Below are positions 20,086 through 40,712 of a DNA stretch of 48,303 bases, in pieces. The position numbers were made by a program, and so were the translations under genes. The stretch lies in contig JAKFVC010000100.1 in assembly GCA_021732415.1 (NCBI GenBank), positions 1-48,303 on the forward strand. Reading direction: 5' to 3'. The notes beneath the pieces were generated by a model. It was not told the DNA's origin. It did not search any database and worked only from the letters and a program-made list of their open reading frames with translations. The stretch is from Planctomycetaceae bacterium (lineage in GTDB: Bacteria > Planctomycetota > Planctomycetia > Planctomycetales > Planctomycetaceae). The first letter of the stretch is position 1. Each line of letters begins with the position of its first letter.

Positions 20086-21558
20086 TCAAATGATTTCCTT
20101 GATCGGTTCGACGTGTTCCACGCCAACCAGCTTCTGATCTAATCCGCCATAGAAATACGCCAACCGATTGGGGTCCAAGCCCATCTGATTCAAAATCGTC
20201 GCGTGCAGGCGTTTCACGTGTGTGGGATGTTCCACGGCGGCCGCCCCCAGTTCATCGGTGGTGCCATAACTTTGGCCACCTTTGATTCCGCCTCCGGCCA
20301 TCCACATGGTGAAGCCGTAGGCGTTGTGATCGCGACCGGTCCCTTCCGCATATTCCGCCGTCGGCTGGCGACCGAATTCACCACCCCACACGATCAGGGT
20401 CTGGTCCAGTAACCCGCGCTGCTTGAGATCCTGAATCAGCCCGGCAATCGGCTTGTCGGTATTGCCCGCGTGGTAGCTGTGATTCTTAAACAAATCACCA
20501 TGAGCATCCCAGTTGGCGTCATTGTGATTCCCGCCCGAGTAAAGCTGAATGAACCGCACGCCACGCTCGACCAGTCGCCGGGCCAGCAGGCACCGCTTGC
20601 CGAAATCCTGGGTCCGGGGTTCATTGAGACCGTAAAGATTCTGAGTCGCCTCGCTCTCCTGGTTCAAATCAACCGCCTCGGGGGCCGACTGCTGCATCTT
20701 ATAGGCAAGCTCATAGCTCGCGACGCGTGCCGCCAGTTCGCTGTTTTCACTGCGCGCCGCGAGATGCTGTTGATTCTCAATCTGTAGTGAATCCAGCAAT
20801 TCCCGCTGCATTTCACGAGTCATCCCCGCGGGCAGATTGAGGTCAATGACCGCGGCCCCCTTGGACCGCATGATCGTTCCCTGATACGTGGCTGGCATAT
20901 ATCCGCTCGACCAGTTCTTGGCGCCGCTGATCGGACCGCCCGTGGGATCAAGCATCACCACGAAGCCCGGCAGGTTCTCGTTTTCACTACCTAATCCGTA
21001 ATTCACCCACGAACCCAGCGCCGGACTTCCGCTGAGGATTTTCCCGGAATTCATCTGCAGCATTGCCGAACCGTGAATCGGCGAATCAGCCGTCATCGAC
21101 TTGAGAAATGCGATGTCATCGACACAGTTCGATAGATGTGGAAAAAGTTCCGAGACCCACTGACCTGATTTGCCATACTGCTTGAACTTCCACTTCGGCC
21201 CGACCACCCTGCCTTCATTCTTCTCACCGCCACGCCCCTTCGTTTTCACGGGGATTGTCTTGCCATCAAGCTCATACAGTTTCGGCTTGTAGTCAAACGT
21301 ATCAACCTGGCTGGGGCCGCCGTACATGAAAAGAAAGATGACGCTCTTGGCCTTACCAGGAAAGTGCGAGGGCTTCGGCGCCAGGGGATTCGCAAACTTC
21401 CGTTCGGCTTCAGCGGCCATCGCTTGTGAGCGGAAAAATCCATCTGAAGAGAGCATTCCCGTCAACGCAACCGAAGTAAATCCCGCACCGGCCTCCCACA
21501 GGAATTCACGTCGCGTACGACCGCAGAAAGATCCTGAACCGAAGTTGAAGTTTGACAT
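20086..21558 (-). CDS. DUF1501 family protein, Tat-exported
   Basis: A 490-residue protein beginning MSNFNFGSGSFCGRTRREFLWEAG. The R-R-x-F-L motif with a following hydrophobic stretch marks Tat export in folded form. DUF1501 belongs to the alkaline phosphatase/sulfatase-like superfamily; typical signatures are IFLFMYGGPSQVDTFD near the N-terminus, HSNADDL-like... more exactly RFIQLYSGGNHNDANWDAH mid-protein, and VWGGEFGRQPTAE with GRDHNAYGFTMWMAGGG towards the C-terminus. The enzymatic activity is unproven. It lies downstream of a PSCyt1/DUF1549/DUF1553 gene, a pairing repeated many times in planctomycete genomes. ATG 21558 with AAGGGTAG upstream is preferred over 21582. Confidence 0.9.
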   Translation of the reverse strand: MSNFNFGSGSFCGRTRREFLWEAGAGFTSVALTGMLSSDGFFRSQAMAAEAERKFANPLAPKPSHFPGKAKSVIFLFMYGGPSQVDTFDYKPKLYELDGKTIPVKTKGRGGEKNEGRVVGPKWKFKQYGKSGQWVSELFPHLSNCVDDIAFLKSMTADSPIHGSAMLQMNSGKILSGSPALGSWVNYGLGSENENLPGFVVMLDPTGGPISGAKNWSSGYMPATYQGTIMRSKGAAVIDLNLPAGMTREMQRELLDSLQIENQQHLAARSENSELAARVASYELAYKMQQSAPEAVDLNQESEATQNLYGLNEPRTQDFGKRCLLARRLVERGVRFIQLYSGGNHNDANWDAHGDLFKNHSYHAGNTDKPIAGLIQDLKQRGLLDQTLIVWGGEFGRQPTAEYAEGTGRDHNAYGFTMWMAGGGIKGGQSYGTTDELGAAAVEHPTHVKRLHATILNQMGLDPNRLAYFYGGLDQKLVGVEHVEPIKEII

Positions 21559-21619
21559 ATGAACTACCCTTATTAATTCCAACCAGCAAAATCAACCGAT
21601 CGTTGATCGCCAGGCATTT

Positions 21620-21707
21620 GATTAGTGAAGATTAGCGGAGATTAGTGTTCCAAAAAAAGAATTACGAAGATTTTTAGAACACTAATCTTCGCTAATCCAC
21701 ACTAATC
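21620..21707. repeat. GATTAGTG palindrome inside the DUF1549-DUF1501 operon
   Basis: Arms of 31 bp (21620-21650 and 21677-21707) with three mismatches; each arm is itself built from three GATTAG units. The loop is A-rich (AAAAAAAGAATTACG). It lies 46 bp after the DUF1549 stop and 61 bp before the DUF1501 start, so it may adjust the relative expression of the pair. Confidence 0.85.
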
Positions 21708-21753
21708 TCATTCAACGTTGCCTTTCGCAAACTTCGGGGAGCAAGCCAGATCC

Positions 21754-24648
21754 TCAGTCAACGTACACAAACTCGTTCAAGTTATAGACCAGCAAACAGT
21801 AATACTTGAGTGCCTGATCGACGTCCAACTGATGCTTCTCACGTAACGATTTCAGCAGCTTCAATCCGCGTTCTACGCTGGCCATTTCGGGTTCACGGCT
21901 CAATGCCAACTTCAAGGCCAGGCGCACTTGTTTCTCGGCGTCATCCGCCGCATCCTGTTTCACTCGGCGAGCAAACTCAGTCGCCTGCGTATTCAGGAAG
22001 TCTCCATTCAACATCGCCAACGCCTGGGTCGGTTGCGTAGTCGCGAATCGTGCAGCACAACTGCTGTCGGTATCAGCGAAATCAAAGTCCGCCAGCAATG
22101 GTGTAATCAGCGATCGTTTCACATGAATATAAACACTACGCCGCGCCTGCTCTTCGGGAGACGATTTCCCCCAGCCAGAACCTGGTGCAGATTGTCCCGC
22201 CAGCACTTCCGCCGAGATCTCCGGATAGATCCCCGGACCATACATCTTCAGATTCAAGCGTCCATTGACGGCATGAATTGTGTCTCGCAGCTCCTCAGCA
22301 CTGAGCCGGCGCATTTCGAAGCGTGAGAACAAATCGTTAACGGGATCTTTCTCCAACGCCAACTTGCTGGGACGAGAAGACATTCGATAAGTACTCGACA
22401 GCATGATCGTCTTGTGGAGCGCCTTCATGTGCCAGCCCTGATTGATGAACTCGGCAGCCAGCCAATCCAGCAGTTCGGGATGAGTTGGCAGGTCCCCCAA
22501 TTGACCAAAGTTGTTCGGTGAACGCACCAAGCCTCGACCAAAATGATGCTGCCAGATTCGATTGACCATCACTCGGGAGGTCATCCGGTTTTCTGGAGAC
22601 GCCACCCAGTTCGCCAATGCCAGGCGACGGCCCGATGACTTGGCGTCGGGAGCAGGAGTCGGCACGACAGCAGTCCCGCCACCTAAGATCGATAGGAATC
22701 CGGGCTCGACCTTATCGCGAGGGGAGGTCGGATTACCACGATACAGGACGAAGGTCTCGGGCGGCTGCGATCCGAATTCTGACACGCTGAGAGCAAAGTC
22801 ACTCGACACGCGCTCGTTCTTCAGTTTCTCCATTTCCGCAAACAATCGCTGATATTCGCGGTGCTTCTCATCACCCAACAGCTTCACGCCGAGAGTCTTG
22901 ATTTGTTCCGTCAGATTTCGCACCGGCCCATTCTTGCGGACGGGCGTCAGCGGACGTCCTTCAAATCCCGGCCCCGACCACGCGACAGTCAGACCCAATC
23001 CATTGCTGCGTTGAAAATAATCCAGGCGTACCGGAACGCGCCCCTGCCTCAACCGCACGGTCGCCAGTTTTGGACTTCCTTCGCCGTGAATCCCGTCGTA
23101 CTCGACAATCTTCTTGCCGTCGATCGTGAGCCGCGACCCGTCATCGGAATCGAGCGAGAATGTGTACTCACCATCTGCCGGGACTTTCAAGATACCCGTA
23201 AAAACGAACCCAAAGTCCGTTTCCCGCGAAGCCGGCGAAATGTCGAATTTGCCCAACGGCAGCTTGGCGACCGTCTCGGCCTTCAAGTTGTCGAAGTCGG
23301 GCAGACGGTCCCAGTGGTCGCGATAAAAGCGGTATTCCAGTTCATCCAAATCGACCTGACCAGCCGGCCCACCGACGTTGGCCAACTGATCGTACTTGGT
23401 GCGGAACTCGGACTCGATCGCCGAGAGCGCCACCTGCGTTTGATTGCGTCGAGCTTCCAGAGTTCGCTGTTTCTCTGCGTACTGTCCGCGGGCCGCATCG
23501 TTCTCGAAAATCTGGCGTTCGACATGCGGGCCGTTCGTCCCGTTGGGCGTAATTCCGTGGAAAAACGCCAATAGACTGTAATAGTCCTTCTGCGGAATCG
23601 GATCGATCTTATGATCGTGACACCGGGCGCAATTCACCGTCAAACCGAGGAACACCTGGCCGGTCGTCGCCACCATGTCATCCAGGACATCAAACTTCGC
23701 CAGCAGCCGGTCCGCCGGTTCGTCGTCCCATAGTCCCAGTCGATAGTAGCCGGTCGCGATGATCGAATCGTTCGTCACCTGAGGTAACTCGTCGCCGGCC
23801 AGTTGCTCGCGGACAAACTGGTCGTACGGTTTGTCGTCGTTGAAGGCGCGAATCACATAGTCTCGATAACGCCAGGAATGCGGCTTATTGCCGTCGCGTT
23901 CAAAACTGTTCGTGTCGGCATAGCGGACGACATCCAGCCAATGTCGCCCCCAGCGTTCTCCATAACGCGGCGATTTCAGCAAGTTGTCGACGACCGTCTC
24001 GAACGCCCTCGGAGAGGCATCTTGCACGAACGCAGTCACCTCCGCGACCGTCGGCGGCAGACCTGTCAAATCGAAGTAAGCTCGACGGATCAGCGCGGCC
24101 TTGTCGGCGGGATCTTCCGGACTGAGACCGCGTTCCTCCAACTTGGCGAGAACGAAAGAATCAATCGGATTGGTGATCCAAGCGGCATTCTTAACGGCCG
24201 GCGGAGTTTGCTTTTTAGGAGCCTGAAACGCCCAGTATTCTTCCCACTTCGCCCCCTCTGCGACCCAGCGACGTAGAACGTCAACTTGCTCTGCAGTCAG
24301 CGGCTTCCCCTCTGGGGGCATACGTTCCCCCTCTTCAGTCGACGCCACGCGATTCAGCAACTCGCTCTTGCCGAGGTCTCCCGGAATGACGGCATGTTCT
24401 CCGGACGGCAATTCAGCCAGTGCGGATTCGCGCTTGTTCAAGCGCAAACCGGCTTCCGACTTGTCGGGACCATGACAGGAAAAGCAGCGCTTCGCGAAGA
24501 TCGGTTGCACTTCTCGAGCGAAATCCACCTTCGGCAGAGCAGGGCGGGTCTCAGCCTGTTGAGCCAACACCACGGTCGGCATCAACATCACGAGGGCCAT
24601 TCCCCAGACCAGTAGAATTCGGAATTTCGCAGGGACAGACTGCAGCAT
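21754..24648 (-). CDS. PSCyt1 / DUF1549 / PA14 / DUF1553 protein
   Basis: A 964-residue exported protein. The signal peptide covers residues 1-29. A cytochrome-like PSCyt1 domain with CFSCH (55-59) spans about 40-125. DUF1549 follows (about 150-360), with FDLTGLPPT, YGERWGRHWLDVVRYADT and a second C-x-x-C-H (CARCH, 340-344). A PA14-like beta-sandwich is inserted at about 435-565 (YTFSLDSDDGSRLTIDGKKI), a fold often used to bind glycans. DUF1553 forms the C-terminus (MVNRIWQHHFGRGLV, MLNGDFLN, LNEFVYVD). The role is unknown; the haem sites and PA14 domain suggest periplasmic handling of a polymeric or sugar substrate. It is followed by a DUF1501 gene. ATG 24648, preceded by GAGGAAATG, is chosen over 24675. 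Confidence 0.9.
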   Translation of the reverse strand: MLQSVPAKFRILLVWGMALVMLMPTVVLAQQAETRPALPKVDFAREVQPIFAKRCFSCHGPDKSEAGLRLNKRESALAELPSGEHAVIPGDLGKSELLNRVASTEEGERMPPEGKPLTAEQVDVLRRWVAEGAKWEEYWAFQAPKKQTPPAVKNAAWITNPIDSFVLAKLEERGLSPEDPADKAALIRRAYFDLTGLPPTVAEVTAFVQDASPRAFETVVDNLLKSPRYGERWGRHWLDVVRYADTNSFERDGNKPHSWRYRDYVIRAFNDDKPYDQFVREQLAGDELPQVTNDSIIATGYYRLGLWDDEPADRLLAKFDVLDDMVATTGQVFLGLTVNCARCHDHKIDPIPQKDYYSLLAFFHGITPNGTNGPHVERQIFENDAARGQYAEKQRTLEARRNQTQVALSAIESEFRTKYDQLANVGGPAGQVDLDELEYRFYRDHWDRLPDFDNLKAETVAKLPLGKFDISPASRETDFGFVFTGILKVPADGEYTFSLDSDDGSRLTIDGKKIVEYDGIHGEGSPKLATVRLRQGRVPVRLDYFQRSNGLGLTVAWSGPGFEGRPLTPVRKNGPVRNLTEQIKTLGVKLLGDEKHREYQRLFAEMEKLKNERVSSDFALSVSEFGSQPPETFVLYRGNPTSPRDKVEPGFLSILGGGTAVVPTPAPDAKSSGRRLALANWVASPENRMTSRVMVNRIWQHHFGRGLVRSPNNFGQLGDLPTHPELLDWLAAEFINQGWHMKALHKTIMLSSTYRMSSRPSKLALEKDPVNDLFSRFEMRRLSAEELRDTIHAVNGRLNLKMYGPGIYPEISAEVLAGQSAPGSGWGKSSPEEQARRSVYIHVKRSLITPLLADFDFADTDSSCAARFATTQPTQALAMLNGDFLNTQATEFARRVKQDAADDAEKQVRLALKLALSREPEMASVERGLKLLKSLREKHQLDVDQALKYYCLLVYNLNEFVYVD

Positions 24649-24745
24649 AGCGCATTTCCTCAGGTTCGCCGCCAACTCGCACCATCGACCCGTCGAGCAG
24701 GCGAACCTGTGATTATATCACCGATGACGAGCGGGCTCCAATCCG

Positions 24746-24825
24746 CTGTAGGATGGCCGCCCCGGCCGTCTTCTTTTTCCGCAGGATGAGTACAAAATTC
24801 GACGGCCGGGGCGGCCATCCTACAG
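24746..24825. repeat. CTGTAGGATGGCC palindrome, copy 2
   Basis: Perfect 25-bp arms (24746-24770 and 24801-24825), identical to those at 15908 and 16102, with a 30-nt loop. It ends 8 bp from the stop of the sigma-kinase gene. Confidence 0.95.
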
Positions 24826-24833
24826 GCAACGTC

Positions 24834-26282
24834 TCACACCATCCTCGAAAGTTCTTCCAACTCCCGATGAACGGCCGCCATATCCGGCCAGCGATCCGCC
24901 ACTTTCTTCGCGAGCAAGCGATCGCCAAATACCCGCCAAGCATCTGGAACGTCACATTCCACGCGAGACGGCCAAGCCACGGGCGTCGCACTGACTGCCT
25001 GTCGCAAGACCGTTTCCAGATTAGCGCCGTCATGCGGCGGCCGGCCGGTCAGTAAGTTGAAGAGGATGGCTCCCACGCCAAAAACATCGGTCGCGGGACC
25101 AATTTCGCCCCATTGGGGATCAACCAATTCTGGAGCAATATACGCGGGCGTCCCTCCGTCACTCAGCCTGCTTTCGGACGGGTTCAATGACCGGCGAGCG
25201 AAGCCAAAGTCACTCAGGAGCAACTGCCCCTGAGCACCGATCAAGACATTACCCGGCTTCAAATCACAGTGAATGACGCCGTGCTGATGAGCATGCTGCA
25301 AGGCGGCTGTGAGTTCCAGCATCCACCGGCAGATCTGTGTCAGTGGAGCTCGCTTGGCCGTTGCGTAGCGATTCAGATCCCCTTCCGGTGCCCACTCCAT
25401 CACCAGAAAAAACCCCCGATTGGGAGTCTTTCCCAACCCATGAATGGAGATGATTCCCGGATGCTGCAGGCGGGAGACCATCTGCACTTCTCGCAGAAAT
25501 GAATCCACCCACCGCGGTTGAAACAGAAACTGCTTCTTGAGAAATTTCACCGCCACCGTTCGCCCAGTGGCCTTTTCCGAGGCTCGATAAACATTGCCAC
25601 TGGCTCCGTCGCCGATCCATTGATGCAATCGGTAGTCCGCAAAATCCAGGGAGGTTAAAGACGGATGGGCCGCAGCCGTGGCATGTTTGATGTCGACCGT
25701 CGTCGGCTCAAGATCTAGCAGCCTCTGCAAAAGTTCTTTGGCCAGGACCAATTGCCGCCGCACTGTCCGTTCGGAGATCTGCTGGTGCTCGGCAATTTCG
25801 AGGATCTCATGCCCCTGCAAGCGAAGCAGAAACGCCTCCCGCGACTTGGGATCCAGATCGAGTTGCACACGTTCCACGATCTCGGTCAGGCTGGCGGCAT
25901 CATCGGGGCCGTCTCCGGGAACGGCGAGAATTTCATCCGGATGGCGATCCGCCCGCACATCGCGGCGCTGGGCTTGATGTCGACGGATCTGCTGAGCCAG
26001 CTTACGAACGGCGATTTCCGCAAGCAGCGGCCATAAATCCGTTTCTTTTGACAGAGCCGAAACGGCAGGCGTGGGTCGGAGAAAGAAACTGCGAAAGGCG
26101 GACTGCACGACATCGTCCGCATCGAACCGCGACCGAAATCGAGGTGCCAATCGCCCCCGGATCAATGCTTCCAAACGCGGGGCATGCTCCCGGAAAAATG
26201 CGGAATGAGTCCAGTCGCCCGACTTCAAAATCTCCTGCGGCAGGGCGGCTTGAGCATTCAGATTGTCCGCAGGATCAGTCAT
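24834..26282 (-). CDS. ECF sigma factor fused to a Ser/Thr protein kinase
   Basis: One 482-residue chain carries two regulatory modules. Residues 25-190 are an ECF sigma factor: region 2 with RFDADDVVQSAFRSFFL (53-68), and region 4 with DLDPKSREAFLLRLQG and a helix-turn-helix (EIAEHQQISERTVRRQLVLA, 162-181). Residues 215-478 are a Hanks-type kinase: glycine loop IGDGASGNVY (223-232), Lys246 in VAVK, catalytic Asp340 in HCDLKPGN, Asn345, Asp358 of DFG, and APE in IAPEL. Like the kinase at 7632 it lacks the Arg before the catalytic Asp (HCD), hence non-RD. There is no membrane segment, so it is cytoplasmic. The frame is continuous without a stop or frameshift between modules. The fusion suggests that kinase activity directly controls promoter recognition (autophosphorylation in cis), an inference. 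It is divergent from the ferredoxin gene and lies between two DUF1549/DUF1501 pairs. Confidence 0.9.
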   Translation of the reverse strand: MTDPADNLNAQAALPQEILKSGDWTHSAFFREHAPRLEALIRGRLAPRFRSRFDADDVVQSAFRSFFLRPTPAVSALSKETDLWPLLAEIAVRKLAQQIRRHQAQRRDVRADRHPDEILAVPGDGPDDAASLTEIVERVQLDLDPKSREAFLLRLQGHEILEIAEHQQISERTVRRQLVLAKELLQRLLDLEPTTVDIKHATAAAHPSLTSLDFADYRLHQWIGDGASGNVYRASEKATGRTVAVKFLKKQFLFQPRWVDSFLREVQMVSRLQHPGIISIHGLGKTPNRGFFLVMEWAPEGDLNRYATAKRAPLTQICRWMLELTAALQHAHQHGVIHCDLKPGNVLIGAQGQLLLSDFGFARRSLNPSESRLSDGGTPAYIAPELVDPQWGEIGPATDVFGVGAILFNLLTGRPPHDGANLETVLRQAVSATPVAWPSRVECDVPDAWRVFGDRLLAKKVADRWPDMAAVHRELEELSRMV

Positions 26283-26374
26283 GGCTGAATTTTCGGCAAA
26301 TATTTTGGCCGGTCAACCCGCCGGATGGCAATCCCCTCAATTGAGTCCCCTGTTTCGCCTGAAGTACTTGGTTT

Positions 26375-26452
26375 GTGAGCGGACTGGCGCTAGCCACCGG
26401 TCTGATGTGTCAATTCGATTGAAAAACCAGCGGCTAGCGTCGTACCGCTCAC
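26375..26452. repeat. GCTAGC-type palindrome, copy 3, upstream of the ferredoxin gene
   Basis: Imperfect 27-bp arms (26375-26401 and 26426-26452): GTGAGCGG, CGCTAGCC and GGT blocks match. It ends 15 bp before the ferredoxin ATG, just ahead of its AAGGAG site, so it would form a 5'-UTR hairpin if transcription starts upstream. Confidence 0.75.
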
Positions 26453-26467
26453 TTTAAGGAGATCGTC

Positions 26468-26737
26468 ATGGCTTTTGTCGTCACCGAGCCCTGTTTTGGC
26501 TGCAAACACACGGAATGTGCGGCGGTCTGCCCCTGCGACTGCTTTCACGAGGGCGAGCACATGCTGTTTATCGATCCAATACCCTGCATCGACTGCGAAG
26601 CTTGCCAGAACGCCTGCCCAACGCAGGCCATCTTTCACGAGGACAGTGTTCCCGAACAATGGCGGGATTTTATCGCCCTAAATGCGGAAATGGCGGAGAT
26701 TTGCCCCTCCATTACCGAACGGAAGACACCGCGTTGA
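26468..26737 (+). CDS. fdxA: FdxA-type ferredoxin with two iron-sulfur clusters
   Basis: An 89-residue cytoplasmic electron carrier. The Cys pattern CFGCKHTECAAVCPCDC and CIDCEACQNACP provides ligands for two Fe-S clusters. The first half has the split spacing typical of 7Fe-8S ferredoxins, and the ending SVPEQWRDFIALNAEMAE matches the FdxA group closely. It passes electrons between unidentified redox partners; no partner enzyme is adjacent. A strong AAGGAG lies 7 bp before the ATG. The gene stands alone on the plus strand. A palindromic element begins 2 bp after its stop, and another ends just before its ribosome binding site. Confidence 0.9.
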   Translation: MAFVVTEPCFGCKHTECAAVCPCDCFHEGEHMLFIDPIPCIDCEACQNACPTQAIFHEDSVPEQWRDFIALNAEMAEICPSITERKTPR

Positions 26738-26739
26738 AT

Positions 26740-26913
26740 CGTGGGACGGGTCTCCAGGCCCGTCCGTCCAGTTTTTTGAAGAATTGCGATTTTCCCCGCC
26801 ATCGCCTCCCATCGCCAATGAGACCGGCTTTCAACAATAACCGACCGCTGGAGTGCCGCCCGACTCTTAAGAATCAGACTGCGGGACGGACGGGCCTGGA
26901 GACCCGTCCCACG
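26740..26913. repeat. GGGACGGGTCTCC palindrome, copy 2
   Basis: Perfect 25-bp arms (26740-26764 and 26889-26913) with a 124-nt loop that has no obvious inner palindrome. It starts 2 bp after the ferredoxin stop. Confidence 0.95.
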
Positions 26914-27246
26914 GTTTCATCATCGCACATCCCGCCTCAACCGCAATTTGGAGTTGACAACACGACGTATCTAGACTGTGCTATAGGTCATGCTAGAGTA
27001 TTGATCGATTTGGTCAGTGATACTGGCAAGTGGTGACAATACATCGTTACATTGGTGATCGTGACGATATGCTTGGGATTGTCACGCCTGCCAGCCTGCC
27101 CCGCCGTTTTCGGTCCTGCCAGAACGTCGTGATTCGTAGTTGCCTCCGAATCGCTTCCGCCTGCACGTGAATGTCACGTCGGCGAACCTGATCCTGCCCC
27201 ACGTTTTGGTGAGTTCGCTCACACATTCCACCAAAGACGATTTTCC
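26914..27246. other. Upstream region of the second DUF1549 gene
   Basis: No gene or repeat is recognised here. A TTGACA at 26954-26959 and a TGCTATAGG at 26979-26987 resemble promoter parts, but their spacing (22 bp) is too long for a standard sigma-70 promoter. The promoter of the DUF1549/DUF1501 operon is expected in this stretch. Confidence 0.35.
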
Positions 27247-30200
27247 ATGCCTGACTCACGCTGCGGTCGACGAGGACTTTTTTTGGTCTCCCAGAGTTGC
27301 TCGACACTCTTGTTGCTGGTGCTTATGCAGGGCTCGGTCTCTGCCCAGGCTCCGGGGAGTGAAGAATTCTTTGAGCAGAAGATCCGACCGGTTCTGGTCC
27401 AGCACTGTTATTCTTGCCATTCCGCAGAGGCGAAGGAAAAGAAGAAACTGAAGGGCGGACTCTATCTGGATGTCGCCGAAGGCTTGCTGACCGGGGGCGA
27501 TACCGGCGCAGCCATCGTGAAGGGTAAGGCGGCCGAAAGTCTGCTGATCAAGGCCCTGAAGTATGACGGCGTAGAAATGCCCCCCAGTGGCAAGCTGCCC
27601 GACACCGTTATTGCTGACTTCACCGCCTGGATTGATGCGGGCGCCATTGACCCTCGTAAGGGAGACCAGCCGGTTAAGCCGGTGCGTGTCATCGACCTGG
27701 TGGAAGGCCGCAAGTTCTGGTCGTTCCAGCCACTGCAGGCTGCCGTCCCGCCGGAAGTGAAAAATACCGCCTGGGCCCGGACTCCGCTCGATCGGTTCCT
27801 GAGTGCCAAGCAAGAGGAACGCGGCCTGGGCCCGAATGCTCCCGTCAGCCGAGAAAAGCTGATTCGCCGAGCCTATTTCGATCTGATCGGGCTCCCTCCG
27901 ACACCGGAGCAAGTCGATGCGTTTCTGAAGGATGAGACTCCTCAAGCGTTCGAAAAGGTCGTCGACAGTCTGCTGGACAGCCAGCATTACGGAGAACGGT
28001 GGGCTCGGCACTGGCTGGATGTGGTCCGGTTCGCCGAGAGTGGCGGGTACGAATTTGACGGTTTCCGTCCTGGTGCTTATCACTACCGCGACTGGGTTAT
28101 CAAGTCATTCAACGCCGACTTGCCCTACAACGAATTCATCCGGATGAATCTGGCCGGAGACAAGCTGCAACCGGGTTACGTCGGCGCGGCGGCATCAGGC
28201 TTTCTGGTGGCCGGCCCCTATCCGGGGCAGATCACGGCCAAGACCGTCGAACGCATCCGCTACGATCAACTGGACGACATGCTGATGACCGTCGGCGGGT
28301 CGATGCTCGGCCTGACGCTGGGTTGTGTGCGATGTCACGATCACAAGTACGATCCGCTCCCTCAGCAGGATTACTACGCCCTGGCCGCGACGCTCGCCCA
28401 GACCTCACATGGGCCGATCACGCTCGATCCCGATCCAGCGGCGACGCAGGCGGCCATCGAACAGCACGCCCGAGATCACGAGGTTCAACTGGCGGCCTGG
28501 CGCGACTTCGCCGCGAAGGAACTGCCCGCTCGGTTCACCAAATGGCAGCAGGAATCGCTCCCGAAAATTGATGTCGATCCCCGTTGGCAGATTCTCGATG
28601 CTTTGACCGTGACCACGGAGGACACTTGGCTGAACACGGCCGAAGACGGCCTGGTCGTCTTCGCCGGACCGCGGCGGAAGGACGGCGACAAGTACATCGT
28701 CACAGCCCAGACCTGGCAGCAAAAACTGACCGCGCTGCGTCTGGATGCACTCACTTACAAATCCTTGCCGAGCAAAGGCCCCGGCCTGAGCGGCAACGGC
28801 AGCTTCGCGCTGGGTGACTTTAAGGTCATTGCGAAACCGCTCGACCCGCAAAGTAAGGAAGCGCATATCACCCTCAAACTCCGACCGGTGCTGGCGGCCT
28901 TCGAAGAGATGTCTCAGCCGCTGAAGAATGCGGTTGATGATAACCCCGGTACGTTCTGGCGCGCCAACGCTGATGGTGGCAAGGACAACGCGGGGGTCTT
29001 TGAAATTGAAGGTGGCTTGCCGGGATTTGCGGGCGGGACGTCTTTGACGTTCGAATTGAAACTTGCGGACGCGGGTCTCGGACGATTCCGCATCGCAATT
29101 ACCAAGGAGCCGGGAACGCCCACCTGGGCCGGCGAGATCGGTACTCAGCATCTGGGTGAGATCAAGGCGATCCTGGCCGCGAACAACAACACTCTGCCGG
29201 AGGCCTTGCGTGACCCGACCGTGCGTTGGTTCAGCAAGTTCGACGACGTCGCCCAAAAGGTCCGTCTCGCCGTCGACACCCATGCCCGCGCGAAACCGCG
29301 TCCGCCGCAGGTCGAGGTCTATACGACGGTCGCCGGTGGTCAGGATGTCTTCCTGTTACGTCGAGGTGAAGTCGACAACAAAGCCGGGAAAGCCACTCCA
29401 GGAGTTCTGCAGGTTCTCAGTCGGACCGGCGAGCCGCCCGCAGCGACGGCCGCGGCCACTCCCCAACCAGCGCCTGTCGATCCTCGCGTGTCGTTGGCCA
29501 ATTGGATGACCGACGTCGATCACGGGGCAGGGCCCCTCCTCGCGCGCATCATTGTTAATCGTCTCTGGCAGCATCACTTTGGGGAAGGTCTCGTCAGCAC
29601 GCCGAATGACTTTGGAGCCCAAGGCGATCGTCCGTCGCACCCCGAGTTGCTCGACTGGCTGGCCGGCGAATTGATCAAAGGTGGCTGGAAGCTGAAGCCT
29701 ATTCATCGCTTGATGATGCAGAGTGCCGCGTATCAGCAGGCGAATGTCGTCACTCCGGAAAACACCAAGCTGGATCCCGCCAATCGGTTATTGTGGCACT
29801 TCAATCCACAACGGATGGAAGCCGAGATCATCCGGGACTCGCTGCTCGCCGTTGGCGGATCGCTCGATCGCAGCATGTATGGTCCCAGCATACTGGATAA
29901 CATCCCGCGTCGCAGCGTCTATCTGCGAGTCAAACGGAGCGAATTGATCCCGTTCATGACGGTGTTTGATGCGCCCGAACCCACCCAAAGCATTGGCGAA
30001 CGGATTGGTACGACTGTGCCCACGCAGGCGCTGACGATGCTGAACTCGCCGTTCGTGCGGCAACAGGCAGAAAAGCTGGCGGCGCGGATCAAGCCGGCGG
30101 CGGATAAACCGCTCGCGGAAGCCATCGATAATGGATACCGCATTGCATTTGGACGGATGCCGATCGAGTCTGAACGTCAACGCATGCTGGCGTTCGTTGA

Positions 30201-30306
30201 AGCACAGAAGACGTTGCTGGGAGCGGCTCCGAATGCTGTCGATCTGGCACTGACGGAGTTCTGCCATGTGTTGTTGTGCTTGAACGAATTTGTGTACGTG
30301 GATTGA
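27247..30306 (+). CDS. PSCyt1 / DUF1549 / DUF1553 protein
   Basis: A 1019-residue exported protein, paralogous to the one at 21754 but in the opposite orientation. Signal peptide residues 1-33. The PSCyt1 domain carries CYSCH (54-58). DUF1549 contains FDLIGLPPT, YGERWARHWLDVVRFAE and CVRCH (360-364). The central part (about 440-690) differs from the other copy: no PA14 signature is visible, but a beta-rich stretch (LRLDALTYKSLPSKGPGLSG) suggests a different binding module. DUF1553 closes the protein (IVNRLWQHHFGEGLV, MLNSPF, LNEFVYVD). It is the first gene of a pair with the DUF1501 gene 100 bp downstream. Function is unknown. The different insert suggests that the two copies recognise different substrates. 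Confidence 0.9.
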   Translation: MPDSRCGRRGLFLVSQSCSTLLLLVLMQGSVSAQAPGSEEFFEQKIRPVLVQHCYSCHSAEAKEKKKLKGGLYLDVAEGLLTGGDTGAAIVKGKAAESLLIKALKYDGVEMPPSGKLPDTVIADFTAWIDAGAIDPRKGDQPVKPVRVIDLVEGRKFWSFQPLQAAVPPEVKNTAWARTPLDRFLSAKQEERGLGPNAPVSREKLIRRAYFDLIGLPPTPEQVDAFLKDETPQAFEKVVDSLLDSQHYGERWARHWLDVVRFAESGGYEFDGFRPGAYHYRDWVIKSFNADLPYNEFIRMNLAGDKLQPGYVGAAASGFLVAGPYPGQITAKTVERIRYDQLDDMLMTVGGSMLGLTLGCVRCHDHKYDPLPQQDYYALAATLAQTSHGPITLDPDPAATQAAIEQHARDHEVQLAAWRDFAAKELPARFTKWQQESLPKIDVDPRWQILDALTVTTEDTWLNTAEDGLVVFAGPRRKDGDKYIVTAQTWQQKLTALRLDALTYKSLPSKGPGLSGNGSFALGDFKVIAKPLDPQSKEAHITLKLRPVLAAFEEMSQPLKNAVDDNPGTFWRANADGGKDNAGVFEIEGGLPGFAGGTSLTFELKLADAGLGRFRIAITKEPGTPTWAGEIGTQHLGEIKAILAANNNTLPEALRDPTVRWFSKFDDVAQKVRLAVDTHARAKPRPPQVEVYTTVAGGQDVFLLRRGEVDNKAGKATPGVLQVLSRTGEPPAATAAATPQPAPVDPRVSLANWMTDVDHGAGPLLARIIVNRLWQHHFGEGLVSTPNDFGAQGDRPSHPELLDWLAGELIKGGWKLKPIHRLMMQSAAYQQANVVTPENTKLDPANRLLWHFNPQRMEAEIIRDSLLAVGGSLDRSMYGPSILDNIPRRSVYLRVKRSELIPFMTVFDAPEPTQSIGERIGTTVPTQALTMLNSPFVRQQAEKLAARIKPAADKPLAEAIDNGYRIAFGRMPIESERQRMLAFVEAQKTLLGAAPNAVDLALTEFCHVLLCLNEFVYVD

Positions 30307-30326
30307 AGATACAGACTGAATCCTGA

Positions 30327-30360
30327 CTCCCCTCGCCCTGGTACTCCGGGGAGAGGGGAG
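30327..30360. repeat. CTCCCCTCGCCC hairpin, copy 1
   Basis: CTCCCCTC (30327-30334) pairs with GAGGGGAG (30353-30360); the loop contains a second small stem (CCC/GGG). The first 32 bases are identical to those at 48266-48297. It lies between the DUF1549 and DUF1501 genes, 20 bp after the first stop. Confidence 0.85.
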
Positions 30361-30406
30361 ATAAGACCAAGATTTTTCACACTGCCTGAACAAAAAAAGG
30401 CCGCTC

Positions 30407-31849
30407 ATGTTCAACTTCAACTTGCCCTCTCGACGTCAATTCCTGCAGGATGCTGGCCTGGGTTTCGGATCGCTGGCGCTCGCGAACATGCTGCATCAGC
30501 AGTCTCGTGCGGATACGCCCGTCGCGGCTGCCAACGATCCGCTCGCGTTGAAGACGCCGCACTTTCCCTCGAAGGTCAAGTCGATCATCTGGCTCTTTAT
30601 GACCGGCGGTCCCTCGCAAGTTGACACGTGGGACTACAAACCCGAGTTGCAAAAACGAGACGGCCAGGAACTCGCGGGGGCCGATCCGAAGACCGGATTC
30701 TTCAGCACCAGTGGCAAGTGTTTGAAGTCGCCGTTTGAGTGGAAGCAGCACGGCCAGTCGGGCAGTTGGGTCTCGGACTTGTTTCCGCACTTGTCGCAGC
30801 ACGTCGACAAGATGACGTTTCTGCACTCGATGTATCTGAAGCAGAATAACCACGCCCCAGCCTCGATCGAGCTGATGTGCGGTACAAACCGTCCCGGCCT
30901 GCCGGCATTGGGAGCCTGGCAGACGTACGGGCTCGGTTCGGCCAATCAGGATCTGCCGTCGTATGTCGTCATGCACGAAACGCGGCCGCGCGGCGACGAT
31001 CAAATCTGGTCGGCGGGATTCCTCCCCAAGTCCTACCAGGCGCTCGCGCTGGATGCACGTCGCAATGAAGCGATCGACAATCTGGCCCGAGATGCCAAGC
31101 ACACTGACGTCCAGCAACGAGCCCAACTGGATTTGATCCGCCAACTGAATCAAGAACACGCCGCAGGTCGCCCCACCCAGGGCGATCTTGCGGCCCGGAT
31201 CAACTCGTTTGAGCTGGCCTACCGCATGCAGATGGCAGCCCCTGAAGCCATCGACCTGACCAAGGAATCCGAAGCCACGCACAAGATGTACGGCATGGAC
31301 CAGCCGCATTGTGCGACCTTCGGCCGCCAGTGTTTGATTGCCCGCAGGTTGGTCGAACGGGGCGTCCGTTTCGTGCAGATCTTCGCGGGCAAAGGTGTCG
31401 GTGGAGACGGCAGCGTGAACGACGTTCCGTGGGACTGTCACTCGGACGTCCAAACGAATCACCGGTCGTGCGGCCTGTACGTCGATCAACCCGCAGCGGC
31501 ATTGCTGGGGGACCTGGCCTCGAAGGGCCTGCTGGAATCCACGCTAGTTATCTGGGGCGGTGAGTTCGGTCGCACATCCGATTCGCAGGGCTCAAAGGGG
31601 CGCGATCACAATCCGAACGGCTTCACAATTTGGATGGCCGGTGCCGGGGTGAAGGGCGGCTTCCACTACGGGGCCACCGACGAGTTCGGCTACAAGGCTC
31701 AGCAGAACAAGGTGCATGTCAACGATCTGCACGCGACCCTGTTGCATCTTCTGGGATTGGAGCACACGAAGCTCACGTACCGATTTAACGGCCGCGACTT
31801 CCGGCTGACTGATGTCGCTGGTGAAGTCATCACCGATATCCTGGCATAA
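30407..31849 (+). CDS. DUF1501 family protein, Tat-exported
   Basis: A 480-residue partner of the DUF1549 protein encoded just upstream. The Tat motif SRRQFLQDAG opens the protein. Family signatures are present in order: IIWLFMTGGPSQVDTWD, RRLVERGVRFVQIFAG, WDCHSDVQTNH, VIWGGEFGRTSDSQG and GRDHNPNGFTIWMAGAG. AAAGG 6 bp before the ATG supports the start. It differs from the other DUF1501 protein (20086) in the insert around KTGFFSTSGKCLKSPFEWK. It presumably acts in the periplasm together with the PSCyt1 protein; its superfamily relatives are metal-dependent sulfatases and phosphatases, but the activity of DUF1501 is unproven. Confidence 0.9.
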   Translation: MFNFNLPSRRQFLQDAGLGFGSLALANMLHQQSRADTPVAAANDPLALKTPHFPSKVKSIIWLFMTGGPSQVDTWDYKPELQKRDGQELAGADPKTGFFSTSGKCLKSPFEWKQHGQSGSWVSDLFPHLSQHVDKMTFLHSMYLKQNNHAPASIELMCGTNRPGLPALGAWQTYGLGSANQDLPSYVVMHETRPRGDDQIWSAGFLPKSYQALALDARRNEAIDNLARDAKHTDVQQRAQLDLIRQLNQEHAAGRPTQGDLAARINSFELAYRMQMAAPEAIDLTKESEATHKMYGMDQPHCATFGRQCLIARRLVERGVRFVQIFAGKGVGGDGSVNDVPWDCHSDVQTNHRSCGLYVDQPAAALLGDLASKGLLESTLVIWGGEFGRTSDSQGSKGRDHNPNGFTIWMAGAGVKGGFHYGATDEFGYKAQQNKVHVNDLHATLLHLLGLEHTKLTYRFNGRDFRLTDVAGEVITDILA

Positions 31850-38190: not shown

Positions 38191-39612
38191 ATGCTCGACG
38201 TTTTCCCCGTAAACGACTATGGCCCGATCATGCCGGGACTGGTCATGGCGGCAGTCGCGATCGTCCATGTCTTCCTGGCGCAGTTCGCGGTCGGTGGCGG
38301 AATCTTGCTGTGCTATCTGCAATGGCTCGGCATGACCGGCCGCAATCCGCATGCCCGGCAGTTTGTCGCCGGTTACTTCAAGGTTCTAGTGTTGATCAGC
38401 TTTGTGCTGGGAGCATTGACCGGCGTGGGGATCTGGTTTACCGCGATCCAGGTCAGCCCGCACACGATCGGCTCCATGGTGCAAAACTTCCATTGGCTGT
38501 GGGCGACCGAGTGGCTCTTCTTTTCTCTGGAAATCGTCTCCGGTTATTGCTTCTACCGCTACCATTCACGCCTTAGCGATAACGCCTCCATGGTGCTGCT
38601 GGTTATCTATGCCGTGGCTTCCTGGATGAGTCTCTACCTGATCAATGGCATTCTCTCATGGCAATTGACCCCGGGGCGCTGGCTGGAAACTCACACTCTA
38701 TTCGACGGATTTTATAATCCCAGCTTCTGGCCCAGCCTGCTGTTCCGCACCGTTGTGGCGATGACGCTGGCCTCATTGGCGGCGTGCGTGGTCATTAACC
38801 TGATGACGTCGGTCGATCGAGAAGCCAAAACATCCCTCATGAATCGCGTCGCCGAGTTACTTATCCCCATGGTGATCATGCCCGGGCTGGGACTCTGGTT
38901 TCTGGCCGTCATGCCCGCCGATAGTCGAAGCTGGGTGCTCGGCGGCAGTCCGGCGATGATGTTGTTTCTGAACATCTCCATTGGCTCATCCCTGGCCATC
39001 GGCGCTTATGCACTGCTGGGCCTGGTGCTTCAACGATTGTTCATCAATACGGCCACGGCGGGACTCTTGTTGCTGTTGGCGTTTGGTGCAACGGCCGGGG
39101 GCGAGTTCGTCCGCGAAGGATCTCGCAAGCCGTACTCCGTCCGCCACGTGTTGTATTCGAATTCGATTCGACCACAGGATGTTGCCCAGATGCGCGTCGT
39201 CGGCTGCACGGCGAACGATCCCTATCCGCTGCGCAACGACTCAATCTATCCCAACGATCAAGTGCGGCTGGGAGGGAAAGTGTTTCGTCGGCAATGCAGT
39301 GTGTGCCACACCGTCGAAGGGACGAACGGAGTCACCGAACTCACCGGTGCCTGGGACACGAATCAGTGTCGCCTCAATATCGCCAAACTGCAGCACACGA
39401 AACCCTTCATGCCGCCGTTCGCCGGGACGCCGCAAGAACTGGAGGCGCTCGTGCAATTCATCAACTGGTCCAGTGCCGAGCGACCGGAAGCCTGGCGGGA
39501 AAACACGGATCCGACGGACTTCGCGCAGATCAAAACCTGGCTGGAGGAGGCGGGGACGGCCCCGGGAGACTTCAAACAAAACAACAAGCGTCGCCAGGAG
39601 CTCATCCGATGA
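38191..39612 (+). CDS. Cytochrome bd-like oxidase subunit I fused to a c-type haem domain
   Basis: A 473-residue membrane protein. Eight transmembrane helices (about 14-46, 64-87, 100-122 and five more up to residue 320) carry marks of CydA: His26 in the first helix at the place of the haem ligand His19, an acidic pair Glu107/Glu114 in helix 3 (WATEWLFFSLEI), and GEFVREGSRKPY after helix 8, resembling the conserved ExGRQPW segment. The long quinol-binding Q-loop between helices 6 and 7 is replaced by a short turn. The C-terminal domain (about 345-450) binds haem c: CSVCH (369-373) with a probable Met ligand in KPFMPPF. It may therefore take electrons from a c-type carrier rather than quinol, an inference. 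ATG 38191 with AGGAG 9 bp upstream is chosen over TTG 38182. It overlaps the next gene by ATGA. Confidence 0.6.
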   Translation: MLDVFPVNDYGPIMPGLVMAAVAIVHVFLAQFAVGGGILLCYLQWLGMTGRNPHARQFVAGYFKVLVLISFVLGALTGVGIWFTAIQVSPHTIGSMVQNFHWLWATEWLFFSLEIVSGYCFYRYHSRLSDNASMVLLVIYAVASWMSLYLINGILSWQLTPGRWLETHTLFDGFYNPSFWPSLLFRTVVAMTLASLAACVVINLMTSVDREAKTSLMNRVAELLIPMVIMPGLGLWFLAVMPADSRSWVLGGSPAMMLFLNISIGSSLAIGAYALLGLVLQRLFINTATAGLLLLLAFGATAGGEFVREGSRKPYSVRHVLYSNSIRPQDVAQMRVVGCTANDPYPLRNDSIYPNDQVRLGGKVFRRQCSVCHTVEGTNGVTELTGAWDTNQCRLNIAKLQHTKPFMPPFAGTPQELEALVQFINWSSAERPEAWRENTDPTDFAQIKTWLEEAGTAPGDFKQNNKRRQELIR

Positions 39613-40712
39613 ATCTGCCATTTCCCTTGGGTTTTCCCGCTCCGACTGCGTTCTATTTGACGCTCTACATTTTGACTTTTGCCCTGCACCAGGCCTTCAT
39701 GCACTACGTCCTGGCGGGCAGCTTGTACGTCGCCTGGACGACATCCTTTCCGGGCCGTGACAGCGTCTCTCGCAACGATCAACCGATCGCCGCCACGTTG
39801 CGTGATTGGCTGCCGTTCCTATTGAGCGCTGCGATCACGGCGGGAGTCGCGCCGTTATTGTTCATTCAGATTGTCTATCAGAAGCAGTTCTACACGGCCA
39901 ATCTGTTGCTGTGGTGGCGCTGGATGCTGGTCGTGCCGATTTTGATCATCGCCTTCTATCTGCTGTATCTGCTGAAGAGCAAGATTATGGCCCATTGGCC
40001 GCACATCGCGCGGTCGCTGGTTGCCATCAGCACCGCCGCGTGCTTCGTCTTCGTGGGTTTCTGCTGGACCGCCAACCACTTGCTGTCAGTCAGCGAAGCA
40101 CGCTGGCCTGAAGTCTACGTTACGGGCCAGTTGCCATTCACCCCGTTCGAGGTTCTGGCCCGCATGGGCATCTGGATCAGCGACTCATTCGCGACATTGG
40201 CCGCAATCCTGGCGTGGCAACTCTATCGGAGACAATCCGACCGAAGTGCAGATATCGTCGGCCCAGCCACTCGCAACCTGGCGGTGATGGCACTGGGCGG
40301 ACTCGGACTGTTGACGCTGGCCGGTCTCACCTACATCCTGACCGCGGCAGATAAGACGCGAGATTCGCTGTTTGATAGCGGCACACTGCCGTATCTGATC
40401 ATCTCGGTCGTAGGCGTCGCAATGCAGGTCGCGGGCTGGTTTCAACAATGGCGATTCGGCCGATTGACGGGCTTATGGTCCACGGTGGTTTCGACAGGCT
40501 CGGTCCTCACGCTGCTGGCGATGTCCTTCGCCCGCGAGGCCATTCGAGCTGGCGTGCTCGACATGCCGCAGTTATTCCAGCGACACGCCGACGCCGCGAA
40601 AGTCGGCGGATTCACCGTCTTCTTGATCTTCACCGTCTTGGTCTCGGCGGCGATAGCGTGGTGCTTCGTGACGGTCCACCGCGGCCTTAAGGTCCAGCCC
40701 CCCGTCGCCTGA
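39609..40712 (+). CDS. Membrane subunit of the bd-like oxidase complex
   Basis: A 367-residue protein with about nine transmembrane helices. The start ATG overlaps the previous stop (ATGA at 39609-39612), so it is translationally coupled and almost certainly part of the same complex. It occupies the position of CydB. Helix 1 contains two His (LHQAFMHYVLAG, His27 and His32). The segment AITAGVAPLLFIQIVYQKQF recalls the second helix of CydA-type proteins (G-x-x-T-G pattern), so it may be a CydA-like paralogue rather than a CydB. No cofactor-binding site is proven. The longer frame back to 39294 is a shadow of the upstream gene. A separate transporter-type function cannot be excluded. Confidence 0.55.
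   Translation: MNLPFPLGFPAPTAFYLTLYILTFALHQAFMHYVLAGSLYVAWTTSFPGRDSVSRNDQPIAATLRDWLPFLLSAAITAGVAPLLFIQIVYQKQFYTANLLLWWRWMLVVPILIIAFYLLYLLKSKIMAHWPHIARSLVAISTAACFVFVGFCWTANHLLSVSEARWPEVYVTGQLPFTPFEVLARMGIWISDSFATLAAILAWQLYRRQSDRSADIVGPATRNLAVMALGGLGLLTLAGLTYILTAADKTRDSLFDSGTLPYLIISVVGVAMQVAGWFQQWRFGRLTGLWSTVVSTGSVLTLLAMSFAREAIRAGVLDMPQLFQRHADAAKVGGFTVFLIFTVLVSAAIAWCFVTVHRGLKVQPPVA

Follow-up and report, generated by a model that had tools for sequence, protein, structure and literature searches.

A CydA homologue with a haem c attachment site and an adjoining CydA-like partner in a Planctomycetaceae bacterium

What kind of enzyme is made by a cytochrome bd-like gene that ends in a cytochrome c domain, and what feeds it electrons? 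The question is raised by two overlapping genes in a 48,303-nucleotide stretch of DNA (the window: positions 1 to 48,303 of contig JAKFVC010000100.1, assembly GCA_021732415.1) from a Planctomycetaceae bacterium. An original prediction made from the letters alone had described a divergent bd-like oxidase at 38191-39612 with a coupled second gene at 39609-40712. Both the coordinates and the second gene were borne out, and the ATGA overlap between the two makes translational coupling likely. We found that the first gene product, subunit I, belongs to the cytochrome bd superfamily as a CydA homologue, as profile, fold and tree confirm; it has kept the four residues that line or ligate the two-haem active site of CydA while losing the quinol loop and the low-spin haem ligands, and it carries a haem c attachment site. 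Its partner, subunit II, is supported as a remote paralogue of CydA and not as CydB. The solved bd structures that gave matches here belong to quinol oxidases, in part according to their entry titles. The features of the locus, by position, are as follows.

38191..39612, + strand: subunit I gene (ATG start; 473 amino acids), a CydA-type eight-helix membrane core with a C-terminal cytochrome c
38233..39120, + strand: membrane core of subunit I, transmembrane helices TM1-TM8 (residues 15-310), from AlphaFold helices and the structural match to 7oy2_C
38266..38268, + strand: His26 of subunit I, aligned with CydA His19 (alignments)
38509..38532, + strand: Glu107 and Glu114 of subunit I, aligned with CydA Glu99 and Glu107 (alignments)
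39115..39135, + strand: E309-G-S-R312-K-P-Y315, aligned with CydA Glu445 and GRQPW; E309 found in all 24 family rows
39259..39462, + strand: residues 357-424 of subunit I, a cytochrome c domain by Pfam PF13442 (E 1.7e-7, above the cut-off)
39295..39309, + strand: C369-S-V-C372-H373, site for haem c attachment, identical in all 21 homologues
39409..39411, + strand: Met407 (MPPF), probable sixth haem c ligand, invariant in 21 of 21
39609..39612, + strand: ATGA overlap of the subunit II start with the subunit I stop (sequence)
39609..40712, + strand: subunit II gene (ATG start; 367 amino acids), a nine-helix CydA paralogue in the position of CydB
39687..39689, + strand: His27 of subunit II, aligned with subunit I His26, invariant in 18 of 18

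The membrane part of the pair is invisible to single-sequence searches, so profiles were needed. On its own, subunit I falls short of PF01654 and receives from Pfam nothing but cytochrome c (PF13442), with best E-values of 0.02 in NCBIfam and 0.2 in the PDB; subunit II returned nothing significant in the family libraries or the PDB. Four alignments were used: A1, all 21 distinct subunit I sequences from both genome scans (L007 being the window itself); A2, 18 of the 19 subunit II sequences (the incomplete one on L001 was omitted); A3, 26 CydA; and A4, 21 CydB. Profile A1 matched the CydA of Geobacillus (5doq_A) at E 9.2e-15 and that of M. smegmatis at E 6.7e-8. These matches to solved CydA chains cover helices one to five; for the final segment, which contains the GRQPW-like motif, they are weak (9.2 and 3.6 bits). 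Aligned with hhalign, the subunit I alignment scored 4.3e-18 against the 26 CydA and 0.067 against the 21 CydB. PF01654 itself was found in 6 of the 21 members at E <=1 (best 1.6e-16), and its cut-off was exceeded by 4 of the 31 subunit I genes in the 120-genome search described below.

Structure comparison led to the same family. The AlphaFold model of subunit I (mean predicted local distance difference test score, pLDDT, 88.9) has eight transmembrane helices and superimposes on E. coli bd-II CydA (7oy2_C) with Z 32.5 and a root-mean-square deviation of 2.9 over 316 residues (range 9-326). Against the CydA chains of ten bd entries, Z was 29.1-32.5 over 307-318 residues; the fold over 9-326 is thus shared with the canonical enzymes E. 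coli bd-I, E. coli bd-II and Geobacillus bd (Z 30.2-32.5). By Z, the next fold group was made up of polysulfide reductase and alternative complex III subunits (Z 16.9-18.9). Foldseek matched the CydA fold at E 1.3e-7. The original prediction had staked itself on a relation to CydA, and the absence of one did not occur: profile and structure comparison both link subunit I to CydA. A tree of the first five helices was built from 24 family rows (the 21 plus three of four plasmid sequences, the second Thermus plasmid being omitted), 26 CydA and 8 of 9 long bd-like relatives (L055, with a long insert, being omitted). A single branch separated each group from the rest (support 100/99, 100/99 and 100/98, respectively), so that the window family is set apart from both quinol-type CydA and the long bd-like proteins.

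The residues kept and lost give this relation its meaning. His26, Glu107 and Glu114, named as CydA-like marks in the original prediction, do align with CydA H19, E99 and E107 and are at least 90% conserved among the 21 homologues. In the joint alignment, the H19 column holds His in all 22 family rows that have a letter there (of 24), and the E99 and E107 columns hold Glu in 23/24 and 22/24. The predicted GRQPW-like segment stood in part: E309 and R312, within REGSRKPY, align with CydA E445 and R448 (Glu in 24/24 and Arg in 23/24 family members), and the motif reads SRKPY, not GRQPW. Elsewhere the family departs from CydA. The H186 column has His in 0/24 members (F185 in the window), the M393 column has Met in 2/24 (S263), the E257 column has Glu in 1/24 and a gap in 22/24, and the W441 column has Glu in 23/24 and Trp in none (E305). 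All 26 CydA rows retain H19, E99, E107, H186, E257, M393, W441, E445 and R448; K252, absent in the family, is Lys in just 18 of the 26. As had been predicted, subunit I has no Q-loop (quinol loop): a short link connects TM6 (210-240) with TM7 (254-280). In the bd structures, H19 (an axial ligand) and E445 bind the two active-site haems, and H186 and M393 bind haem b558. Read this way, the columns show a retained active site and the loss of both the low-spin haem site and the quinol site.

Beyond TM8, the subunit I chain is a class-I cytochrome c. The predicted C-terminal CSVCH domain is a constant feature of the family: C369, C372 and H373 of the CxxCH motif, together with M407, are invariant in 21/21 homologues, and PF13442 was detected in all 21 at E <=1. 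CydA has a ninth helix at the corresponding place, so the haem c would sit where TM9 begins. With eight helices and the N-terminus outside, the domain would lie on the outer side of the membrane, where cytochrome c maturation occurs; Lys and Arg in the subunit I loops before it number seven in the four odd loops and two in the four even ones. Some relatives have further haem sites: L013 and L016 each carry two CxxCH motifs, and the Desulfobacteraceae relative has a multihaem tail. In the latter (L006 217-2865), a bd-type subunit with its cytochrome c runs on into a fused tail whose matches are to the MtrC/MtrF and cytochrome c7 families; efflux genes follow, no subunit II was found, and a link to extracellular electron transfer is possible. 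A divergent subunit I at L015 1489-2748 retains CxxCH and is perhaps a degenerate or repurposed paralogue.

Subunit II had been predicted to be CydA-like rather than CydB-like, and most comparisons agree. Its profile matched that of subunit I at E 2.4e-12 over most of its length, CydA at E 3.1e-4 (with an hhalign probability of 40% only) and CydB at E 0.075. Used alone, the profile found no bd chain in the PDB, and PF01654 matched one of 18 members, at E 0.47. The model (pLDDT 90.3, nine long helices) superimposed on CydA with Z 26.8-29.7, and CydA was the best chain in 10/10 bd entries by VIA-align. Foldseek was less clear: the CydA chain had the lower E in seven of ten entries and CydB in two (7oy2, 6rko), while 7ose was not comparable among the matches listed. 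These small margins reflect the likeness of the two folds. His27, invariant in 18/18, pairs with His26 in the profile alignment to subunit I, in which counterparts of Glu107 and Glu114 were not seen. Four of the 18 subunit II proteins (L018-L021) also contain CxxCH.

The two genes travel together. A genome scan returned five Planctomycetaceae relatives of subunit I at 74-93% identity and one from Desulfobacteraceae at 31%. Subunit I occurs in 15 of 199 Planctomycetota genomes, the window's own included, and on four plasmid records (Methylosinus, two Thermus, Agrobacterium); its spread past Planctomycetota rests on five records. Subunit II adjoins it in 19 of 21 loci (one cut by a contig end) and in all three plasmid loci examined. 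That the unit recurs across the phylum and on plasmids of other phyla, and that subunit I differs from a 93% identical homologue by 0.04 nonsynonymous and 0.73 synonymous substitutions per site, place it beyond chance. At L017 a natural fusion of both subunits was considered and rejected, the long frame upstream of subunit I having no subunit II match.

Within the window's own family, 120 genomes gave subunit I in 31, subunit II in 32 and both in 31; subunit I occurred alone in none of the 120 and subunit II alone in one (G276). For this count, 5 of 36 genomes matched by A1 were dropped, their weak matches (45-57 bits) having fallen on CydA genes. In 29 of the 31 pairs the genes are same-strand neighbours whose matched parts stand 8-152 bases apart; in the other two, G219 and G248, each gene is on a contig of its own. 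Canonical CydA, counted as PF01654 matches of at least 209 bits (33, one of them partial), is present in 33 of the 120 genomes; two genomes have it together with the pair, compared with an expected 8.5 (Fisher p 0.002, uncorrected for kinship). Among the weaker PF01654 matches, four above the cut-off were the window's own protein family and three lay below it. The window's genome, 98% complete, has one copy each of the subunit I and II genes and no match to PF01654 or PF02322. It has two matches to PF00115, the haem-copper oxidase family, and PF00033 cytochrome b at three places; NrfD (PF03916) was not found in it, and an alternative complex III could still be present.

Where does the pair stand among known systems? 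That non-quinol bd branches have been proposed, as the original prediction noted, agrees with the available text of PMC13189123, which names the superfamily branches qOR, OR-C and OR-N and places the quinol-site enzymes in qOR, and with that of PMC10839748, which also names the OR-C and OR-N families. Like OR-C, the window pair has no quinol site. The members of OR-C, a bd-superfamily family (Murali, Gennis and Hemp, 2021), reportedly carry cytochrome c domains, and that feature fits as well. Judged by these features, the pair probably belongs to the published OR-C branch, and its novelty is correspondingly modest. Compared with canonical bd, subunit I shares positions H19, E99, E107, E445 and R448; it lacks the Q-loop and the b558 ligands, has cytochrome c in place of TM9 and Glu for W441, and is paired with a CydA paralogue instead of CydB.

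The archaeal CydAA' enzymes have two CydA paralogues as partners. The window pair shares this layout, its two paralogues being encoded together in the 31 family genomes counted above; the archaeal enzymes differ in being, reportedly, quinol-fed (Murali et al. 2021). For the OR-N or 'bd-like' proteins of Nitrospira, Nitrospina and anammox bacteria, the available portions of PMC10839748, PMC12342949 and PMC3578206 describe a CydA-like N-terminal half with no quinol site and propose a CydA' partner, and in both respects they resemble the window pair. Our eight long bd-like proteins would be OR-N, judged by their resemblance to the Nitrospina/Nitrospira/Kuenenia protein in the accessible part of PMC3578206. 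They differ from the window family in having His at 186, Tyr at 99 and Ser at 445 (8/8 each), in their length (608-792 amino acids), in having no CxxCH and in forming a separate clade. A ninth relative (L055 2626-5796, - strand; 1057 amino acids) has a long insert inside its CydA-like part. Among the titles and abstract openings searched, which excluded most subscription journals, a bd oxidase that bears haem c and has been characterised did not turn up.

The original prediction allowed for an oxygen reductase or another terminal enzyme, fed by cytochrome c or otherwise, and the sequence does not settle this choice. The computation supports the fold, the residues, the haem c site, the paralogous partner and the gene linkage. 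We think it fairly likely that the pair forms a CydAA'-type member of the bd superfamily, using electrons from a periplasmic cytochrome c to reduce O2. The attached haem c would receive its electrons from a soluble cytochrome c, itself reduced by the genome's cytochrome b complexes, or from some other periplasmic donor; haem c would take over the job of b558 and pass electrons to the two active-site haems, where O2 would be reduced to water. Glu107, Glu114 and subunit II may help to carry protons, and subunit II would stand in for CydB, perhaps with one more haem bound at His27. No other bd-superfamily member was detected in this genome, where the pair would work beside the haem-copper oxidases, perhaps in low-O2 or stress respiration.

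Several observations weigh against this periplasmic cytochrome c:O2 reductase. We infer the haem occupancy and content of the complex, its donor, its product and its direction. Replacement of W441 by Glu means that electron routing must differ from that in CydA. L015, whose branch in the tree is very long, has lost the counterparts of E99, E107 and R448, and the Thermus protein has Asp at the E107 column. The topology is challenged by six Lys/Arg in the first 34 residues past TM8 and by subunit II loops that do not discriminate (10 odd versus 8 even); it thus rests on subunit I and on haem c attachment needing the outer side. Recognisable subunit II was not found beside subunit I in two of 21 loci (L006, L017), none of the pair's neighbours in the window was recognised as respiratory, the anti-association with CydAB carries no kinship correction, and we found no experiment on any family member.

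Gene neighbourhoods inform some of the alternatives. Next to the window pair lie a glycosyltransferase, a PMT-like transferase and GDSL hydrolases, with no evident link. On the Methylosinus plasmid, genes for a small cytochrome c, a histidine kinase and a response regulator come after the pair; on the Agrobacterium plasmid, those for a small protein and a similar regulator pair do. The best NCBIfam matches of the kinases are to ActS/PrrB/RegB (213 and 228 bits, below the cut-off of 350) and those of the regulators to ActR/PrrA/RegA (156 and 160 bits, below the cut-off of 250). No two-component genes adjoin the Thermus plasmid pair. The plasmid of Methylosinus sp. C49 has a gene cluster for methanobactin, a copper chelator, alongside the pair and its RegBA-like system (L047 11944-22360); that an oxidase free of copper should neighbour genes for acquiring copper is suggestive.

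Could the complex instead respire nothing and reduce nitric oxide (NO) or peroxide at a haem c-fed two-haem site? Surroundings of the active site that differ from CydA (W441 to E305) and the patchy distribution, in 31 of 120 family genomes, would suit such a detoxifying enzyme, and the available text of PMC10839748 and PMC12342949 mentions a detoxification role of canonical bd enzymes. We nevertheless judge it unlikely: the conserved ligand set is that of O2-reducing CydA, no gene annotated for denitrification occurs in the three plasmid stretches or among 20 Pfam-scanned window proteins, one of the two PF00115 matches could itself be an NO reductase, and the anti-association with CydAB points to oxidase replacement. 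The opposite direction of flow, a quinol:cytochrome c reductase that oxidises quinol in the membrane and exports electrons through haem c in the manner of alternative complex III, seems to us quite unlikely. Such a function is considered for nitrite oxidiser bd-like proteins in the portion of PMC3578206 available, the folds that come closest after bd are those of alternative complex III chains C and F and of chain C of polysulfide reductase (Z 14.7-21.1), and subunit II has no assigned function. The lack of a Q-loop, of E257 (Glu in 26/26 CydA versus 1/24 family members) and of K252 tells against a quinol-oxidising role, as do the retention of both bd active-site ligands and a genome that already has PF00033 cytochrome b.

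Quinol could also be the donor after all, bound in subunit II or at the interface, and the reported quinol feed of archaeal CydAA' makes this conceivable. With H186/M393 ligands and Q-loop absent from subunit I, the haem c site invariant in 21/21 and CxxCH present even in 4/18 subunit II proteins, we hold it to be very unlikely. Least probable of these rivals, and very unlikely, is a membrane redox or O2 sensor without respiratory function. It is suggested by RegB/RegA-like genes after the pair in two of the three examined plasmid loci; the third plasmid and the scanned window neighbours have no two-component genes beside the pair. RegBA control of respiratory genes, described in the available part of PMC5435760, fits an oxidase equally well. 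A bolder form of the cytochrome c:O2 reductase is doubtful in our view: a fourth main bd branch outside qOR, OR-C and OR-N, with b558 swapped for a covalent haem c that replaces TM9, a CydA-paralogue partner bearing its own haem c site in some lineages, and electrons possibly entering from both halves.

Apart from the pair, positions 20086-31849 of the window hold two planctomycete-type PSCyt1/DUF1549/DUF1553 and DUF1501 gene pairs, 21754-24675 with 20086-21582 on the - strand and 27247-30306 with 30407-31849 on the + strand. They flank a gene at 24834-26282 (- strand) whose single frame joins an extracytoplasmic function (ECF) sigma factor match (20-188) to a protein kinase domain (217-465), an order that is, in our impression, uncommon.

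If active, the periplasmic cytochrome c:O2 reductase that we favour would show that the two-haem bd active site is modular and, like that of haem-copper oxidases, open to connection with more than one kind of donor. It would also add an oxidase that routine annotation overlooks, its membrane part being unrecognised by Pfam; the plasmid relatives of subunit I are annotated 'cytochrome c' or 'c-type cytochrome', and their partners 'hypothetical protein' or 'cytochrome C'. The pair makes bd function without b558 a directly testable question.

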